Positions 8,415 to 49,272 of a stretch of DNA of 49,272 bases are shown piece by piece (positions within the stretch are counted from its first letter, which is position 1; each line of letters begins with the position of its first letter). The stretch lies in the NCBI GenBank assembly GCA_903920145.1, contig CAIXKV010000040.1, forward strand, positions 1 through 49,272, read 5' to 3'. The notes beneath the pieces were generated by a model, which was not told where the DNA came from, made no database searches, and saw only the letters and a program-made list of their open reading frames with translations. Position numbers and translations under genes: made by a program. The DNA is from an uncultured Rhodospirillales bacterium (lineage in GTDB: Bacteria > Pseudomonadota > Alphaproteobacteria > Azospirillales > Azospirillaceae).

Positions 8415-10577
8415 ATGATTCGACAGTACGAACTGGTCGAGCGGGTTCGAGCCTACGATCCCACAGCCGATGAGGACATCCTCAATCGGGCTTATGTGTA
8501 TTCCCTGAAATGCCATGGCTCGCAGTTGCGAGCCAGCGGCGACCCTTACTTTGCCCATCCGGTTGAGGTCGCCGGTCTTTTGACCCAAATGAAGCTTGAT
8601 GCCGCATCCATCGTGACCGGCCTGCTTCACGATACCGTCGAAGACACCAACGCCACCCTGGAAGACATCGAGCGGCTGTTCGGCAGCGAAATCGCCCGGC
8701 TGGTCGATGGCGTCACCAAGCTCTCGCGGATTGAGCTTCAGAGCGACCAGACCAAGCAGGCGGAGAATTTCCGCAAGCTGGTGCTCGCCATGTCCGAGGA
8801 TATTCGTGTCCTGCTGGTCAAACTGGCCGACCGGCTGCACAATATGCGGACTCTGCACTACCTCAAAAACCCCGACAAGCGTCGCCGGATCGCTCGGGAA
8901 ACCCTGGATATTTATGCGCCCTTGGCCGAGCGGATCGGTATTCAGCGGTGGAAGGACGAGTTGGAAGACCTGTCTTTCGCCGAACTCAATCCCGAGGCGC
9001 GGGATTCCATTTTAACCCAGTTGGCACGCCTGAGAACCGAAGGCGAAGGGCGGGTTGAGCGCGTGGTCGAGGCGTTGCGCCAGACCCTCCGGGATCAGGG
9101 CTTGCCGAATGCCACCGTCAGCGGCCGGGAAAAAAGCGTTTATTCCATTTGGCGCAAGCTCGAACACAAAAGCATTTCCTTCGAGCAGCTCTCCGATATC
9201 ATGGCCTTCCGGGTGATCGTCGACTCCACCGAAGCCTGTTACCAAGCTCTTGGCATTATTCATGCTCGCTACCCGGTGATTCCAAACCGATTCAAGGACT
9301 ATATTTCGACGGCCAAGCCCAACGGCTACAGATCGCTGCATACCGGGGTGATCGGCCCGGATCGGCAACGGATTGAGGTGCAAATTCGCACCCTTGACAT
9401 GCATGAAGTCGCCGAATTGGGAGTTGCCGCCCATTGGGCTTACAAACAAGACCAGCAGCGCACCGAAACCCGCGAATATCGCTGGATGCGGGAATTGCTG
9501 GACATTTTGGAACATGCCCAGCGGCCCGAGGAGTTCTTGGAGCACACCAAGCTCGAGCTGTTTCAAGATCAGGTGTTCTGTTTCACCCCCAAGGGAGACT
9601 TGATCAGCCTGCCGCGCGGAGCAACGCCGGTGGATTTCGCCTATGCCGTCCATTCTCAGGTCGGCGACACCTGCGTCGGCTCGAAAATCAATGGCCGCAT
9701 GCTGCCCTTGCGCACGCAGTTGCAAAATGGCGATCTGGTGGAGATTGTCACCTCGAAATCCCAAACGCCGTCCCCGGCCTGGGAACGGTTCGTCGTCACC
9801 GGCAAGGCCAAAGCGCGTATCCGCCGTTTTTTGCGAACCCAGCAGCGCACCCAATATATCCAGCTTGGCCGGGCCCTTCTTCAGAAAAACTTCCACCGGG
9901 AAGGGTATGATTTTTCGGATAAGTCCCTGGAAGGGGTTCTGAAGATTTTCCAGGCGGCTTCCACCGACGACCTGTTCGCCAATGTTGGCGCCGCCATCCA
10001 GTCGGCCCATGAAGTCTTCAACGCCGTCTTCCCCGGCCACAAGCCGCAAGTCGACCGCGAGGACAAAGACAAAGCCGTCCTATCCGCCGCTCGAGCAAAA
10101 CCCAAAGGCAAGGGAAAAGACCAACCCTTACAAATTCGCGGCCTCATCCCCGGCATGGCGGTTCATCATGCCCGGTGTTGCCACCCTCTGCCTGGGGATC
10201 GGATCGTTGGCATTGTCACCACCGGCAAGGGGGTGACCATTCATACCATCGATTGCGAAACCCTAGAAAGCTTCCACGATTCTCCCGAGCGTTGGATCGA
10301 TGTCGCCTGGGATAATGGTTCGGGACATCCCGAGAATCATGTCGGGCGCATCGCCTTGGTTGTGGCCAACGAACCTGGCAGTCTAGGATCCCTGAGCACT
10401 GTTATTGGCAAGAATCATGGCAATATTACCAATATCAAGATTACCAACAGACACCAGGACTATTTTGAATTGCTGATCGACGTTGATGTCAAAGACGCCA
10501 AACACCTGACAAACATTATTGCCGCTCTGCGCGCAACGCCGGTTATCAATTCGGCGGATCGGGCGCGAGGACGGTAA
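8415..10577 (+). CDS. rsh: Bifunctional (p)ppGpp synthetase/hydrolase (RelA/SpoT homologue)
   Basis: 720 residues with the full long-RSH layout. The HD hydrolase domain carries HDTVED at 72-77, and the synthetase domain (about 230-345) carries RFKD at 292-295. That RxKD form is typical of bifunctional enzymes, not of synthetase-only RelA. A TGS domain (about 384-447) and a C-terminal ACT domain (about 640-715) follow. The enzyme makes and degrades the stringent-response alarmone in response to amino-acid or other starvation at the ribosome. The start MIRQYELVERVRAYDP matches alphaproteobacterial Rsh starts, so 8415 is preferred over the in-frame ATG at 8400. It is probably cotranscribed with rpoZ, 118 bp upstream. 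Confidence 0.95.
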   Translation: MIRQYELVERVRAYDPTADEDILNRAYVYSLKCHGSQLRASGDPYFAHPVEVAGLLTQMKLDAASIVTGLLHDTVEDTNATLEDIERLFGSEIARLVDGVTKLSRIELQSDQTKQAENFRKLVLAMSEDIRVLLVKLADRLHNMRTLHYLKNPDKRRRIARETLDIYAPLAERIGIQRWKDELEDLSFAELNPEARDSILTQLARLRTEGEGRVERVVEALRQTLRDQGLPNATVSGREKSVYSIWRKLEHKSISFEQLSDIMAFRVIVDSTEACYQALGIIHARYPVIPNRFKDYISTAKPNGYRSLHTGVIGPDRQRIEVQIRTLDMHEVAELGVAAHWAYKQDQQRTETREYRWMRELLDILEHAQRPEEFLEHTKLELFQDQVFCFTPKGDLISLPRGATPVDFAYAVHSQVGDTCVGSKINGRMLPLRTQLQNGDLVEIVTSKSQTPSPAWERFVVTGKAKARIRRFLRTQQRTQYIQLGRALLQKNFHREGYDFSDKSLEGVLKIFQAASTDDLFANVGAAIQSAHEVFNAVFPGHKPQVDREDKDKAVLSAARAKPKGKGKDQPLQIRGLIPGMAVHHARCCHPLPGDRIVGIVTTGKGVTIHTIDCETLESFHDSPERWIDVAWDNGSGHPENHVGRIALVVANEPGSLGSLSTVIGKNHGNITNIKITNRHQDYFELLIDVDVKDAKHLTNIIAALRATPVINSADRARGR

Positions 10578-10649
10578 GGGGGCGCGGAGGCGCCCGCCCG
10601 GCGTCTGAGGGCAGCCTTGATGAGTCACCATCAAGGCCCGATGGTATCA
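10578..10649 (-). repeat. Family-1 structured repeat, copy A (truncated)
   Basis: Reverse orientation, directly after the rsh stop codon. Hairpin 1: GCCTTGATG (10614-10622) with CATCAAGGC (10629-10637). Hairpin 2: GGGCGC (10580-10585) with GCGCCC (10590-10595), loop GGAG. Hairpins 3-5 are absent because the copy ends at the rsh gene. It abuts a family-2 repeat on the other side. Confidence 0.85.
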
Positions 10650-15153: not shown

Positions 15154-15320
15154 TAGCCCACCCCCTGACAACACCACAGACCCCGCCTGCCCGTCATGAT
15201 TTTACGGCCCGACTTTCGATCGGAGCATATCACACAAACCTGGGGCATCGGAAACAGCCATAACGCCGGATCCAGACAGCTCCCCTCGAATTTCTTCATG
15301 ATTGTCTGGCGTGCTGACCT

Positions 15321-15420
15321 TATACCATCGAGCCTTGATGGTGACTCATCAAGGCTGCCCTCAGACGCCGGGCGGGCGCATCCGCGCCCTTGGCAGCGCG
15401 CTCACGACAAAGCGCGGCTG
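15321..15420 (+). repeat. Family-1 structured repeat, copy B (truncated, overlaps kinase 3' end)
   Basis: Hairpin 1: GCCTTGATG (15332-15340) with CATCAAGGC (15347-15355). Hairpin 2: GGGCGC-ATCC-GCGCCC. Hairpin 3 has its own arms: CAGCGCGCT (15394-15402) with AGCGCGGCTG (15411-15420), one G bulged. The stop codon of the Ser/Thr kinase (15402-15404) lies between these arms, so the last codons of the kinase are part of the element. Hairpins 4 and 5 are absent. Confidence 0.85.
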
Positions 15421-17834
15421 AACCCCTGAAGCAAGGTCTTCATATCTCGCGGTCGATCCTGCCAGTCCAACGCCAGCCCCCCCAGCAAAACCTCCTCAAC
15501 CGCCGCTGGAATCTGGACGCCAAGGCGACTGGGCAGAATCAGGGTCTCGGCCTCCTGACGAGCCATGGCATCGGGCGGAGGCCGCCCGGTAATCGCGCAA
15601 TAAAAGGTCGCGGTCAGGGCATAAACGTCGGTCCAGGGGCCTTGCCGGCCATTGGCGACATATTGTTCCGGCGGTGCATAGCCACGTTTAAGGATAACAG
15701 TCAACGCTCCCATCGCTTCGCCGACGCAATGGCGAGCCGCCCCGAAATCCAGCAGCTTGGCACCGCCGCCATCCAGTAGAAAAATATTGTCCGGGCTGAT
15801 ATCCCGATGCACCAGCCCCAACCGATGCACCTCGTGAACCGCCTTGGCAATCGGCAACATCAGGCCCAAGGCCCGGCGATGATCGATGATCCCGCCTTCC
15901 TCCAGCAAATGGCGCTGAAGCGTGCGGCCAATCAATAGCTCCATCACCAGATAGGCCGTCCCGTTGGTTTCAAAAAAGTCGAGCACTTCGACGACTTCTT
16001 TGACATAGCGCAGCCGGGTCAAAATCCGCGCTTCTTCGATAAATTTGACGATGCCGTCGCGAAAAGTTCCAGCATGAGCCTCGACGTAAGGCTTGAGCGC
16101 GCCGCTATCGGTTCGCCCGGCTAAACTGACCGGAAAATACTCCTTGATCGCAACCTTGACCTGAAGCCGTTCATCCCACCCCAAATAGGTAGCCCCGAAG
16201 CCGCCCTGCCCGATCAGACGCCCAATCACATAGCGCCCCTGAAGCACCGTTCCCGCCGAGAGATGAACGCCGGGACGGGCGCCCTCCACCTCGTCATAAC
16301 CACAGACCAAACAGAGCGCCCCACCCCGCTTCGCTTCAAAACAATAGGGGCAACGGTACCGGCCAAACCGTGAAATCAACCGCACGCTAGGGTCTTGACC
16401 GGCCAATCGCGGCCACCCCGGCACCCGCAGCACCGCCGGAACGCCGCCGCTGGCGGCCTGCCCGACCAGATGATCCATGTGCCGCTTAATGAGGGGCTTG
16501 CCGCCAAACTCCGTCACGAGCCCGGCCTCGATCACCGCCACCAGCCCCTCACGCCGCCGAAGTACCGAAGGTTCCTGGAGGTCCATCAATTCCAGAAAGC
16601 TGCCGCGCATGACAAAGGCATCGACCACCCCCAAAATCCGGTCCCGCAGTCGATCCTTGACCTCATCCGGCACGTCCGCCGGATCAAAGGCTGCGGCAGC
16701 CCGTACCAATGCAGCCCGTAGCTCCACCGGATCAAACGGACAAAACACCGCGCTTTCCAGCAAAGTTTGGTTGTGAACAGCGGCGTCCACCAACAGCGCC
16801 ACTTCGTCCACTGATCGTCGCCCCAATGGCGAGCAGGCCAAAGCCGCCAGGAAATAAAGCCGTGTAAACAGGTTGGGCAAGGTCTCGACCACCCCCTGGA
16901 TGGCCGATTGAGCGCTGGCGCCGCCATCCTGGTCCAACCGGCGAGCATAGCGTGCCACCAGAGCCTCGGCCATGGCGCCCTCGCCAACCACCCCCTCGGG
17001 AGTCGCCAGCAGTCCCAGCAGCTCATGAAACAGGCGGATATCCTCTTCCCGCCGCCCCGAACCCAACGGCAAGGGGGATCCCAACTGCCCACGGACTCGG
17101 TCGATCAACGCAGTTCGAGCCAACGGAAAGCGTTTTTGCACCAACAGTCGGTTCAGATCGAACACCAGCGGCGAAGCACCGCCATCCGCCGGACGCGGCA
17201 ACAGCCCCAGCACCAGATCCAACGCCCAGCGCAAATTGATCCCAAGATAGGGATGCACCCCCAGCAGCTCGGTCAGAACGCTCCCCGCCCCCAACAGGTC
17301 CGCCACCAAGCCGTCAACCAGCCCAGCCATCCCGCTCACGATGTCATGCTCGATATCGTCGCGAACCAAGGCCACCAACAGCGCCAGTTTTTCAAGCCAA
17401 CTCCGGCACCCGGCCAGCTCCCGGCAAACGGCGGCCCGTAACAGGTGATCCCGATCGGCTGACCGCCCTGGCTCCACGCCTTCCCGCCGGAGCGCCGCCA
17501 ATGGCGACCCCGTGCGGGCCAAATCATCCAGGAAGGCCTCGGCCATGACTGCCCGGTCGCGCAAATGCCCCAGAAGGGCCGACATGGCTCCTTGGCCGCC
17601 CCCTTCCGGGACGAACGCCTCTCCGTCGGCGACCATTCCAGGTTCGACCCGCAGAGCCGCTAACGCCCGAGGGTCATAAAGCAATTCGGTCGGAGTCAGA
17701 CAGCGGGCATCAAGCCAAGACCGCAGCGCCCGACCGACGGCCAAGCGCCCTTGGACGTCAAAACCGTCCTCTGGGGACAGAGGCGGCTCCGCGCCCTCAA
17801 CGAGGCCAAGCGCAGAAGGCGCGATCATAACCAT
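15402..17834 (-). CDS. Ser/Thr protein kinase with zinc ribbon and large unknown N-terminal region
   Basis: 810 residues. The C-terminal Hanks-type kinase domain (about 534-805) has GQGGFG in the P-loop, the lysine in VAIKEYFP, HRDISPDN with H676, and DFGAAR (696-701): a complete active site. Just before it is a zinc-ribbon motif with Cys 495, 498, 508 and 511, a known companion of this kinase subgroup. The first 490 residues are mostly helical and Leu/Ala/Arg-rich, and I do not recognise them. No membrane helix follows the kinase domain, so it is likely cytosolic. Both ends touch copies of the family-1 repeat: the stop lies in copy B, and the start codon (17834, or 17828) lies at the edge of copy C. 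The frame can be read further into copy C (to 17858), but that part is repeat DNA. Confidence 0.88.
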   Translation of the reverse strand: MVMIAPSALGLVEGAEPPLSPEDGFDVQGRLAVGRALRSWLDARCLTPTELLYDPRALAALRVEPGMVADGEAFVPEGGGQGAMSALLGHLRDRAVMAEAFLDDLARTGSPLAALRREGVEPGRSADRDHLLRAAVCRELAGCRSWLEKLALLVALVRDDIEHDIVSGMAGLVDGLVADLLGAGSVLTELLGVHPYLGINLRWALDLVLGLLPRPADGGASPLVFDLNRLLVQKRFPLARTALIDRVRGQLGSPLPLGSGRREEDIRLFHELLGLLATPEGVVGEGAMAEALVARYARRLDQDGGASAQSAIQGVVETLPNLFTRLYFLAALACSPLGRRSVDEVALLVDAAVHNQTLLESAVFCPFDPVELRAALVRAAAAFDPADVPDEVKDRLRDRILGVVDAFVMRGSFLELMDLQEPSVLRRREGLVAVIEAGLVTEFGGKPLIKRHMDHLVGQAASGGVPAVLRVPGWPRLAGQDPSVRLISRFGRYRCPYCFEAKRGGALCLVCGYDEVEGARPGVHLSAGTVLQGRYVIGRLIGQGGFGATYLGWDERLQVKVAIKEYFPVSLAGRTDSGALKPYVEAHAGTFRDGIVKFIEEARILTRLRYVKEVVEVLDFFETNGTAYLVMELLIGRTLQRHLLEEGGIIDHRRALGLMLPIAKAVHEVHRLGLVHRDISPDNIFLLDGGGAKLLDFGAARHCVGEAMGALTVILKRGYAPPEQYVANGRQGPWTDVYALTATFYCAITGRPPPDAMARQEAETLILPSRLGVQIPAAVEEVLLGGLALDWQDRPRDMKTLLQGFSRALS

Positions 17835-17974
17835 CGAGCCTTGATGCTGACTCATCAAGGCTGCCCTCAGACGCCGGGCGAGCGCATCCGCGCCCTTGGC
17901 TTCGCGTCCACGAGGACGCGGGGCCGCCGTCGCGGCCCGAGGACCGGCGACGTGTCATTGTTAGGGCTCGCCGG
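17826..17974 (+). repeat. Family-1 structured repeat, copy C (full length)
   Basis: Five hairpins in order. H1: 17838-17846 with 17853-17861. H2: GAGCGC-ATCC-GCGCCC (one mismatch). H3: CGCGTCC (17903-17909) with GGACGCG (17914-17920). H4: GGGCCGC (17921-17927) with GCGGCCC (17932-17938). H5: CCGGCGA (17944-17950) with TCGCCGG (17968-17974). H3 arms differ from copy F while pairing is kept. Same orientation as copy B, on the other side of the kinase gene. Confidence 0.9.
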
Positions 17975-18064
17975 TCTCACTCCTTGATTCATGTCCTGCC
18001 CATGGCCTGTCGGGTGCGGCCCCCCCCTTCGGCAGGATCCGCCAACCTCGATCCCCGAAGACAG

Positions 18065-32149: not shown

Positions 32150-32562
32150 AATAAATATCTCTTTCCGGTTGCACCGCCGCGAGCCTGTCCCGTTCTTCCC
32201 GCAACCGAATCCGACAGATGTCGAACCCGCCTTTGCGATGAACGTCAAGGACACCGGAGCGGCCATTCGCCACGCCGTGGCAAAGGTCCGCAAGCCCGCG
32301 TGAGGGGTTGACGACACCGCTTAAATAGCCCGCAGCCGAAGCTTTGGCAACAGTTCTAGTGTGATGGGAATTTGTCGTCCTGGCCATATTCGTTATACCA
32401 TCGCGCCCGAGCGCCGGGCGGGCGCCTCTGCGCCCTTGGCTTTAGGCGCATGAGCGCACAAGCCTGCGGTCGCGGCCCGGTACCGGCACGCTATCATGGC
32501 CATGGCTGGCCGGTATTATAGTCCCCAAGGACAGCCCGAATGAAACAAGAGACGAGGTCTTA
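32150..32562. other. Divergent region between rpsB and the LOV-like kinase
   Basis: 413 bp with no gene. It must hold the leftward rpsB promoter and leader and the rightward kinase promoter. The middle (32394-32515) is family-1 repeat copy D. I could not place promoter boxes with confidence. Confidence 0.6.
32394..32515 (+). repeat. Family-1 structured repeat, copy D (diverged, lacks hairpin 1)
   Basis: H2: GGGCGC (32420-32425) with GCGCCC (32430-32435), loop CTCT. H3 is short: GCGC-ATGA-GCGC (32446-32457). H5 has new arms TACCGGC (32481-32487) and GCCGGTA (32509-32515), so pairing is kept although the sequence differs from copies C and F. The H1 region is deleted and H4 is weak. Confidence 0.75.
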
Positions 32563-34839: not shown

Positions 34840-34884
34840 GACAAAACGCCCTCCCGGTTTCCAAGGGTCTCTGTCTCTCGTGGG

Positions 34885-34985
34885 CCCCGCCCCGCGCGCC
34901 TCTCCGCGCGAGGCCAAGGGCGCGGACACGCTCGGCGTCTCAGGGGTAGCCTTGATGAAGCCGTACCAAGGCTCGATGGTTGACA
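34885..34985 (-). repeat. Family-1 structured repeat, copy E, inside the nif unit
   Basis: Reverse orientation between fdxN and the LRV gene. H1 is AGCCTTG (34948-34954) with CAAGGCT (34967-34973): the inner part differs from other copies but still pairs. H3 is CGCGCG (34893-34898) with CGCGCG (34905-34910). H2 is weak; H4 and H5 cannot be recognised. Confidence 0.75.
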
Positions 34986-35351: not shown

Positions 35352-36985
35352 GGGGTCAAGCCCTTGGTACCAGCGTTCAACGCAAGTCGGTTACGACGCC
35401 CGCGCCACCGCCACATCCTCGACGGCGGCTAAGGCGGCTAAGTGCGCTCGATATACGGCGGCGACCCCTGTTTCGATATAATCGTAAGCGTGATCGGTGA
35501 CGACGTTAATGCCAGCTTCCTTTAGCCGATCGCTGGGACAGACGCCAATCTTAGCCGCCAACAAAACCGGCACGCCTTCCAGAGCCTTGATCACCGCTTC
35601 TAATTTATCCTCTTCGCCATAGCCGCCTTGGCAGTAATGATCAGCCCGGCGATGCCCGATAAAACGAATGCCCGAGCCATCGACTTCATAAAGCTGAAAT
35701 TCGCGGGCATGACCGAAATGCTGGTTGATCCGCCCGCCGCCCCGGCTGCATGTCGCGACCAGCAATGGCGGCGCGACGGCGGTGTTGAGACCACGCCCAA
35801 CGGCTTGGGCGGATTGGGCGGCCTGCTGGCGATCCTGGCGCTCGCGCTCGACCCACTCCCGATACTGGCGCCGCTCGTCGGGCCGGTCTTCGACCGTCAC
35901 CTCGCCCACGCGCTCCATCGTGAAATCCTGACTGAGATCCTGGCCCAACAGCCCCACCGCGTCGGCGCGACATTGGCGGCAATGCTTCATCAGGCGGGCA
36001 CCGCCACCCAACTGGTCCTGAACCTGCTTCAACTCTGCCGGAGTCGGCCCCCGTCGACCATCCAGGCCAAAACGCGTGCCATGGGCCGGGTCCGAGATCA
36101 ACGGCATGATATTATGCAAAAACGCACCGTAACCGCGCACAGTCTCATTGACTGTGGCCAGATGGGTATCGTTGATCCCTGGAATCAGGACCGAATTGAC
36201 CTTAACCAAAATCCCGGCTTCAACCAGCCGACGAAGCCCCTCGATCTGCCGCTCATGCAGAATGCGCGCGGCTTCGCGGCCCGTGTGGCGTCGATGATCA
36301 AAGAAAATCCACGCATAAATGTCTTCTCCAATCGCCGGATCGACCATATTGATGGTGACGGTGACATGGTCGACCTTTAAATCCCGAATGCGCTCCACAT
36401 GATCAGGCAAAGCCAACCCGTTGGTGGATAAGCACAGTTTGATATCGGGAAACTGCCGGGAAATCTGATCAAAGGTTTCGAACGTGTGACGCCAGTCGGC
36501 CAGAGCATCTCCTGGACCGGCGATCCCCACCACCGAAAGCTGAGGCATCCGCGCCGCCACCGCCGCGACCTTACGCACCGCCTGTTCTGGAGTCAGCCGT
36601 TCGCTGGTGACGCCGGGCCGGCTTTCATTGGCACAGTCATATTTCCGGTTACAGTAATTACATTGAATGTTGCAGGCCGGAGCCACCGCGACATGCATCC
36701 GGGCAAAGTAATGATGAGCCTGCTCACTGTAGCAGGGATGATTTTTGACCTTATCCCACACCTCGGGCGGCAAGTCAGAAGCCCCAGAGCTGCCGGACGA
36801 AGACCCGCAAGACTTGGCCGCACATCCGCCACGGGCATTGGGAGGGAGAACGGGGTTAAGGGTGGGATTGGCGCTGATCGGCGCCGAGATCCTGGTCGTG
36901 ACGGTGTCCAAGGGGATAATGTGCCGAGTCATTGCCGCCGCTCCTGATCCTTGGGTTCACACCGCCCCGATGGGGTCAAGCCCTT
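35352..36985. repeat. 14-bp direct repeat flanking nifB
   Basis: GGGGTCAAGCCCTT occurs at 35352-35365 (38 bp after the nifB stop) and at 36972-36985 (just downstream of the -12 box of its promoter). Both are in the same orientation. Meaning unknown. Confidence 0.6.
35391..36932 (-). CDS. nifB: Nitrogenase cofactor biosynthesis protein NifB
   Basis: 513 residues. The radical SAM motif CNIQCNYC supplies C87, C91 and C94, and accessory Fe-S cluster cysteines are in the N-terminal CAAKSC and central HCRQCRADAVG blocks. The C-terminal 110 residues (about 395-500, with RINQHFGHAREFQLYEVDG) are a NifX-like domain, giving the long NifB type. NifB makes the 8Fe-9S-C precursor (NifB-co) of FeMo-cofactor from two [4Fe-4S] clusters and S-adenosylmethionine. 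First gene of the nif unit, driven by the sigma-54 promoter at 37004-37019. Confidence 0.97.
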   Translation of the reverse strand: MTRHIIPLDTVTTRISAPISANPTLNPVLPPNARGGCAAKSCGSSSGSSGASDLPPEVWDKVKNHPCYSEQAHHYFARMHVAVAPACNIQCNYCNRKYDCANESRPGVTSERLTPEQAVRKVAAVAARMPQLSVVGIAGPGDALADWRHTFETFDQISRQFPDIKLCLSTNGLALPDHVERIRDLKVDHVTVTINMVDPAIGEDIYAWIFFDHRRHTGREAARILHERQIEGLRRLVEAGILVKVNSVLIPGINDTHLATVNETVRGYGAFLHNIMPLISDPAHGTRFGLDGRRGPTPAELKQVQDQLGGGARLMKHCRQCRADAVGLLGQDLSQDFTMERVGEVTVEDRPDERRQYREWVERERQDRQQAAQSAQAVGRGLNTAVAPPLLVATCSRGGGRINQHFGHAREFQLYEVDGSGIRFIGHRRADHYCQGGYGEEDKLEAVIKALEGVPVLLAAKIGVCPSDRLKEAGINVVTDHAYDYIETGVAAVYRAHLAALAAVEDVAVARAS

Positions 36986-49130: not shown

Positions 49131-49272
49131 CCTCGAGCCTTGATGGTGACTCATCAAGGCTGCCCTCAGACGCCGGGCGGGCGCATCCGCGCCCTTGGCT
49201 TCGCGCGCATGGGCGCGCGGGGCCGCCGTCGCGGCCCGATACCGGCGATGTGTCAGTATCAGGGCTCGCCGG
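49131..49272 (+). repeat. Family-1 structured repeat, copy F (full length to window edge)
   Basis: Five hairpins. H1: GCCTTGATG (49137-49145) with CATCAAGGC (49152-49160). H2: GGGCGC (49179-49184) with GCGCCC (49189-49194). H3: CGCGCGC (49202-49208) with GCGCGCG (49213-49219). H4: GGGCCGC (49220-49226) with GCGGCCC (49231-49237). H5: CCGGCGA (49242-49248) with TCGCCGG (49266-49272). Nearly identical to copy C outside H3. Confidence 0.9.

Follow-up and report, generated by a model that had tools for sequence, protein, structure and literature searches.

The repeat dispersed through this contig is probably a miniature non-autonomous DNA transposon, similar in kind to the MITEs of other bacteria. 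It is built almost entirely of hairpins, and its three central hairpins form a core that recurs across the Alphaproteobacteria between different ends. We studied it in a window of 49,272 nucleotides (the whole stretch analysed, contig C40 of a genome assembled as 4.26 Mb in 269 contigs), in the rest of that genome and in related genomes.

Six copies in the window

Our covariance model of the repeat (R1) matches the window six times at E<0.001, at 17865, 49164, 32405 and 15359 on the forward strand and at 34878 and 10536 on the reverse strand; the best runner-up has E=0.11. An earlier note on this DNA had reported six copies in both orientations. The model recovers all of them at the reported places and no further copy at E<0.1. 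They are, with TSD for target duplication and TIR for terminal inverted repeat:

10578..10649, reverse strand: copy A, truncated; H1 and part of H2, TNA beside the TIR end at 10647-10649
15320..15394, forward strand: copy B, 3'-truncated; left TNA (TTA) 15320-15322, TIR and H1 15323-15355, H2 15367-15394
17825..17979, forward strand: copy C, full; TSD TCA 17825-17827, element 17828-17976, TSD TCA 17977-17979; H1 17838-17861, H2 17873-17900, H3 17903-17920, H4 17921-17938, H5 17943-17975
32393..32518, forward strand: copy D; TSD TTA 32393-32395, element 32396-32515 (TACC..GGTA), TSD TTA 32516-32518
34878..34985, reverse strand: copy E, degenerate; H1, H2 and H3, without H4 and H5
49131..49272, forward strand: copy F; H1 49137-49160, CCTCA motif 49164-49168, H2 49172-49199, H3 49202-49219, H4 49220-49237, H5 49240-49272 (cut by the contig end)

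In copies C and F the sequence can be read as the five serial hairpins described earlier, while A, B, D and E are incomplete. Copy F, which has a match of 140 bases at 100% identity in its own genome (G000:C78:34976-35115), is itself broken inside H5 because window base 49272 is the contig end, and its H5 looks different for that reason. Copy D has lost H1 through an internal deletion. Its H5 arms, TACCGGC/GCCGGTA, also frame H5 in further copies and so do not represent a compensatory change. The supposed H3 of copy B is host DNA. It spans the stop codon of a protein kinase gene (15402-15404), which comes after copy B, whose hairpins are H1 and H2 only (15323-15394), and its 3' arm is similar to the kinase end of G001, a genome of the same genus.

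Copy A adjoins the stop codon of a RelA/SpoT gene at 10577. Both truncated copies stop at H2 beside a stop codon (A at 10578, B at 15394) and are possibly one-ended deletions halted by the gene. Elsewhere in the window, positions 1-222 at the contig start hold a coding-like sequence (CCGCAGTCGGTTCAGGCG...) repeated in tandem with a unit of about 42-48 bases. Positions 35391-36932 encode a NifB-like protein (Radical SAM + Nitro_FeMo-Co), so the organism may fix nitrogen.

Architecture of the element

We read the layout from 51 H1-anchored places with their flanks, a few of which are not the element. The unit runs TACC–H1–core(H2, H3, H4)–H5–GGTA, is mostly 102–165 bp long and has a 3-bp direct repeat, TNA, on either side. 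Its 5' part reads TNA, TACC[AC]TCG[AG], H1 (GCCTTGATG..CATCAAGGC), TGC and CCTCAGACGCCGG..H2; from H2 onwards the 3' part continues with CTTGGCT, H3, H4, CGA, TACC..H5..GGTA and TNA. The terminal inverted repeats, TACC[AC]TCG[AG]GCC and TACCGGCGAGCC, are imperfect, and each lies within a terminal hairpin (H1, H5). The core itself is CCTCAnnCGCCGG–H2–CTTGGCT–H3–H4.

Thirty of 41 clean full copies measure 102, 147-148 or 164-165 bp. Counted by eye, the length is divisible by three in 27 of the 41. Copies differ in an exchanged linker after H2, in the H5 sequence and in H3, which is of two types (67 and 97 matches in a 954-kb sample of the own genome).

Smaller units occur as well: a solo H1 foldback of 42 bp flanked by TCA/TCA, a 51-bp H1-only unit (TGA/TGA) and a 35-bp H5-only unit (TAA/TAA). 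Among the eight candidates for such solo units, two look like chance, one lies inside another and two are H5-like with unequal TNA. G033, a genome of another family, likewise has a 42-bp solo unit, with flanks TAA and TTA. A foldback of 35-42 bp leaves very little length for an ordinary transposase synapse, which counts against the MITE reading. In our judgement, foldbacks of 35-51 bp with matching TNA would rank among the smallest mobile DNA units. Tandem core units, three at 103-base steps in L305 (G074) and two in L050 (G001), look as if the core perhaps expands locally too.

Evidence for mobility

The target duplication was assessed in 953,556 bases of the own genome (the window and 60 stretches; 22% of the genome). 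This sample holds 126 H1 copies with a TIR, 56 of them with an H5 end and 30 bases of flank left and right. Leaving out 15 composites gives 41, of which 33 have TNA on both sides. The middle base of TNA is identical in 24 of these 33 copies, while shuffling gives a mean of 11.9 and a maximum of 21 in 20,000 shuffles. The nine unequal pairs count against a simple duplication reading, and some solo units are unequal too; we assume that unequal pairs arose by recombination between copies. Of 13 copies retrieved from G033, where the hairpin sequences are other and the ends alike, 11 were recognised and nine have both flanks; TNA is equal in 8 of these 9, against a mean of 3.9 in shuffles (p=0.003).

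One orthologous site is empty. The flanks of copy C with a single TCA align gaplessly at the junction to G001, where the junction reads TCG. This clean empty site comes from copy C alone, the loci of copies B, D and E being not cleanly comparable. From the TNA duplication and the empty orthologous site we conclude that the repeat behaves as a non-autonomous, MITE-like element; with its terminal inverted repeats, three marks of a MITE are present.

The element is abundant. Genome-wide, we count 540 H1 hairpins with at most three mismatches (241 forward, 299 reverse) and 0 in the reversed control, and no H1 place in the own-genome sample scored on both strands. The 40 candidates scored out of 890, copy F included, all align to copy F with 99-100% identity along 135-142 bases. 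Among the contig termini examined, the assembly breaks in the element at 26 of 50 starts and at 22 of 36 ends, which helps explain its fragmentation into 269 contigs.

Within the genus the numbers are uneven. Among the 22 candidates scored in each genome, blastn matches number 21 in G001, two in G002 and none in G003 or G004. R1 gives one weak match (E 0.005) in 185 kb of same-genus stretches, and the same filters give six within the 49 kb of the window. The element seems to have multiplied recently and mostly in this lineage. The earlier note had expected many copies in the genome and had listed a non-autonomous mobile element among its readings: the roughly 540 hairpins bear out the one, and the duplications, the one empty site and the uneven copy number the other.

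A core with different ends

R1 matches at least 28 of 289 genomes of the class, own included, in 21 genera and 17 families; up to 16 candidates were scored per genome, and the counts are a lower bound. Copy F matches seven of nine named genomes by blastn at E<=0.001, in pieces of only 22-65 bases, some of which are perhaps chance GC-rich stems; Magnetospirillum fulvum (G047) has 11 such matches. There is no blastn match to copies A and F in 80 named AcnB loci at E 1e-3, and none to copy F in plasmid and phage collections at E 1e-5.

TACC..GGTA-like ends with TNA are established in the own genome and in G033. One or two cases per genome occur in G009, G029, G043 and G047 (TNA equal) and in G015 (unequal), and are no proof of duplication there because the choice of ends favoured equal TNA. 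In G074, representing one family, the core is enclosed by other ends, CAGGGCAATCGGG and CCGATTGCCCTG-like. Of ten copies retrieved from this genome, nine have a recognised left end: six carry 10-12-bp flank matches, each longer than in all of its 200 shuffles, one has a 9-bp match that is not above its shuffles, and two have matches of 5 and 6. Some cores lack H1 and lie directly after a stop codon, terminator or tRNA (L328, L265, L260).

One core in differing mobile contexts is the unusual feature of this element. The H2-H3-H4 core, with its unpaired signature CCTCA..CGCCGG..CTTGGCT, could be an old, class-wide DNA-hairpin hitch-hiker, taken up by unrelated transposition systems and aiding either movement or host tolerance; we offer this tentatively and think it rather less probable than otherwise.

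Folding and covariation

Copies F and C and a further own copy, L161, fold as DNA with z-scores of -5.5, -4.0 and -5.0, and L278 and L052 of relatives with -10.8 and -8.4; copy D folds weakly (z -1.1). The minimum-energy DNA fold places the hairpins in series in C, L161, L278 and mostly in L052. In copy F, both ends pair with each other and enclose H2-H4.

Eighteen core sequences from nine genomes were aligned without reference to structure. The alignment keeps CCTCA, CGCC, a GG facing TT in H2, and CTTGGCT; the motif search used for picking sequences asked for CGCCGG and TTGGC, which makes the constancy of these letters partly a product of the sampling. Other genomes have ACTCA, GCTCA and CTTCA as variants of CCTCA. 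H2, H3 and H4 vary on both arms: 42 cells are two-sided, where shuffles give 13.6 (none of 500 reaches 42) and slid-alignment controls at most 27. Kinship among the aligned sequences inflates counts of this kind. A single cell (of 43) is changed on one side and still paired.

Copies within the genome look otherwise. Among distinct own-genome sequences, two-sided changes make up 18 of 321 changed cells, and mismatches number 74 for G·T and 95 for A·C (p=0.12), that is, with no G·U excess. From these few two-sided changes and the lack of a G·T excess, copies seem to decay freely; the lack of G·U bias gives no support to a host RNA role. Together with 42 of 43 cells being two-sided, it points to pairing at the DNA level, and the covariation between lineages in this small alignment looks, we infer, DNA-level. 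In H2, the invariant GG opposite TT would form G·U pairs as RNA and mismatches as DNA; it speaks for RNA and against DNA-level pairing.

The compensatory changes proposed earlier are found mainly in the comparison between genomes, the examples from copies B and D having failed. The selection on a folded RNA or single-stranded DNA drawn from them is borne out in part: it agrees with the pairing kept between lineages, while the lack of a G·U excess among own-genome copies favours DNA over RNA.

Search for a mobilising transposase

In the 954-kb own-genome sample, we found no IS-sized pair of ends enclosing a transposase among three of five candidate pairs inspected. Candidate pairs were spaced as in an IS and had the same TNA and at least 13 of 18 matching bases; two of the five are at one place in L222. 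The L205 pair belongs to two separate elements with an OmpA-like gene between them, and the L222 pairs are two elements around a small regulator-like ORF (both genes named by eye); the remaining pairs are in L226 and L150. Among the end matches listed for G033, whose genome is 77% complete, no gene is bounded by element ends.

Transposase matches in the own genome comprise two to Y1_Tnp, five to DDE_Tnp_1 and one to DDE_3, with 0 to DUF4096 (an IS5-type N-terminal domain). We scanned eight transposase loci (L179-L186). Element pieces lie near the matches in L183, L184 and L185, and an H1-like stem near that in L182; the L183 and L185 transposases are remnants, not bounded by element ends. None of the own-genome transposase matches was seen bounded by element ends. 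That these searches found no autonomous partner counts against the MITE reading.

Proposed mechanism and rival explanations

A DDE-type transposase, supplied in trans, would recognise the TACC ends and make a 3-bp staggered cut, giving rise to the TNA duplication. Pairing would be kept if only copies that fold as DNA, as a cruciform or as a single strand at replication, were propagated or tolerated; individual copies would afterwards decay without selection. The core would be a module inherited across the class and joined to at least two unrelated sets of ends.

Compensation might instead be purely mutational. Arm repair by template switching could perfect quasi-palindromes and yield two-sided changes with no structural selection needed, and the 42-to-1 excess between lineages is in keeping with it. 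Within the genome, however, the low share of two-sided changes shows that arm repair is not fast, and the unpaired motifs recur between lineages, an invariance owed partly to the motif search. We consider this explanation unlikely. A structured RNA, a 3'-UTR element that protects or terminates mRNAs and was spread by chance or selection, would account for the strong fold, the covariation and the GG/TT of H2, which pairs as RNA only. Gene context lends it something too: convergent pairs around copies exceed divergent ones (12 vs 3 in the own sample, 11 vs 2 in relatives), and among cores with a sense gene upstream, 10 of 18 in relatives (6 of 23 in the own sample) start at most 40 bases from the stop codon. 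The sparing of divergent regions is, however, equally expected for any insertion that must spare promoters. Placements scored as inside an ORF (37 of 73 own copies, 28 of 59 in relatives) are in our view largely spurious long frames, and the remaining context counts are weak evidence. Against an RNA role, copies A and B run antisense to the RelA/SpoT and protein kinase genes that they abut, own-genome copies lack a G·U excess, copy number is uneven within the genus and Rfam has no match; we consider such a role distinctly unlikely.

The reading as a REP/BIME-type element, moved through the H2 hairpin by a RAYT (a single-strand tyrosine transposase), draws on H2 itself, a hairpin that is short, contains an invariant GG/TT mismatch and adjoins the unpaired CCTCA, much as a REP has a tag next to its imperfect hairpin, and on the cores near stop codons in relatives. 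The own genome also has, in L180 (contig C169) at 542-877 and 1453-2124, a Y1 tyrosine transposase gene and a partial self-duplicate upstream; the length of the Y1_Tnp gene is one that we take to be RAYT-like. Against it, no core lies beside the L180 gene and the GTAG tag is missing. Y1_Tnp occurs in 8 of 28 core-bearing and 51 of 261 other genomes (p=0.32, with two draws of 289 genomes taken as one set) and in none of G015, G021 and G033, which have at least 16 core matches each; the distribution of the core does not follow that of Y1 transposase genes. Moreover, IS200/IS605 enzymes make no larger target duplication, as far as the available part of that account goes (PMC2817692). We judge a RAYT-moved element very unlikely.

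Comparison with known families

Rfam has no match in the window, and at eight loci its lone match at E<=1 is mir-621 (0.23), below gathering and outside the core. A tRNA scan gave nothing of use. In literature searches by keyword and sequence string, with most subscription papers outside their scope, we recognised no description of the element. The earlier note knew of no named family with this layout, and the element indeed fits none among those tested. The comparison is based on the parts available to us of PMC10969869, PMC2817692, PMC3733652, PMC2573895 and PMC5082802.

Bacterial MITEs (ERIC, Correia, RUP, QMITE) are described there as short and intergenic, with terminal inverted repeats, direct repeats and predicted stable stem-loop transcripts, and are commonly regarded as deletion products of one insertion sequence (PMC10969869). 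Our element is likewise short and intergenic, with inverted and direct repeats. It differs in that a parent IS was not found, both ends are hairpins, and the three-hairpin core is common to the class and to different ends.

The CGTC REPs, found mainly in Alphaproteobacteria, are abundant palindromes, often downstream of genes: single 8-9-bp hairpins with loops of 4-5, AT first stem pairs, a CCA tail and a tag (CGTC, TGTC or CCTC) unpaired at one end, in the available account (PMC3733652). In a few species REP dimers are set inside larger palindromes, and Di Nocera et al. report no dedicated transposase and suggest a broad transposase spectrum (PMC3733652). Class, abundance, a place often downstream of genes, loops of 4-5, a CCTC tag (here within CCTCA) and, as far as the searches above reach, the lack of a dedicated transposase are shared with our element, whereas its GCC/GGC stem, GG/TT mismatch, three to five hairpins, terminal inverted repeats and target duplication are not. 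The stem begins a few bases after the tag, without AT pairs, and a T stands in place of CCA. A distant relationship of the core to CGTC REPs is possible. GTAG-REPs and their RAYTs offer an imperfect hairpin with a conserved unpaired tag, in what was available of their description (PMC2817692); here the tag is CCTCA, with no GTAG or GTGG, a target duplication is present and there is no association with Y1 genes. What remains of the earlier suggestion of a REP/BIME-like element is the CCTC tag, without GTAG, the other CGTC-REP features or the Y1-gene association.

Br-REP1 of Bradyrhizobium has three successive palindromes at gene ends, as our element can, around the central consensus CCGGAATCTCGAGATTCCGG, which differs from the CCTCA..TTGGC core; the part of the source available describes no terminal inverted repeat or target duplication (PMC5082802). 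With the RIME of rhizobia in view, we ran R1 on 100 kb of S. meliloti pSymB, and it gave no match. The GC clusters, or double-hairpin elements, of fungal mitochondria are small GC-rich foldbacks with the behaviour of mobile units; they resemble our element in this and differ in genome type, ends and duplication.

Implications

MITEs are usually seen as derived from a single IS. Here, one folded core occurs with different ends and duplication lengths, in 17 families. If the hitch-hiker reading is true, the core would be a shared, protein-less "passenger" part of mobile DNA, common to systems with a 3-bp TNA and a ~10-bp duplication. The layout appears to be kept while the hairpin sequences turn over. 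If so, what is inherited and selected would be the structure itself, and one can look for a shared factor, from the host or a transposase, that recognises CCTCA-H2-TTGGC.
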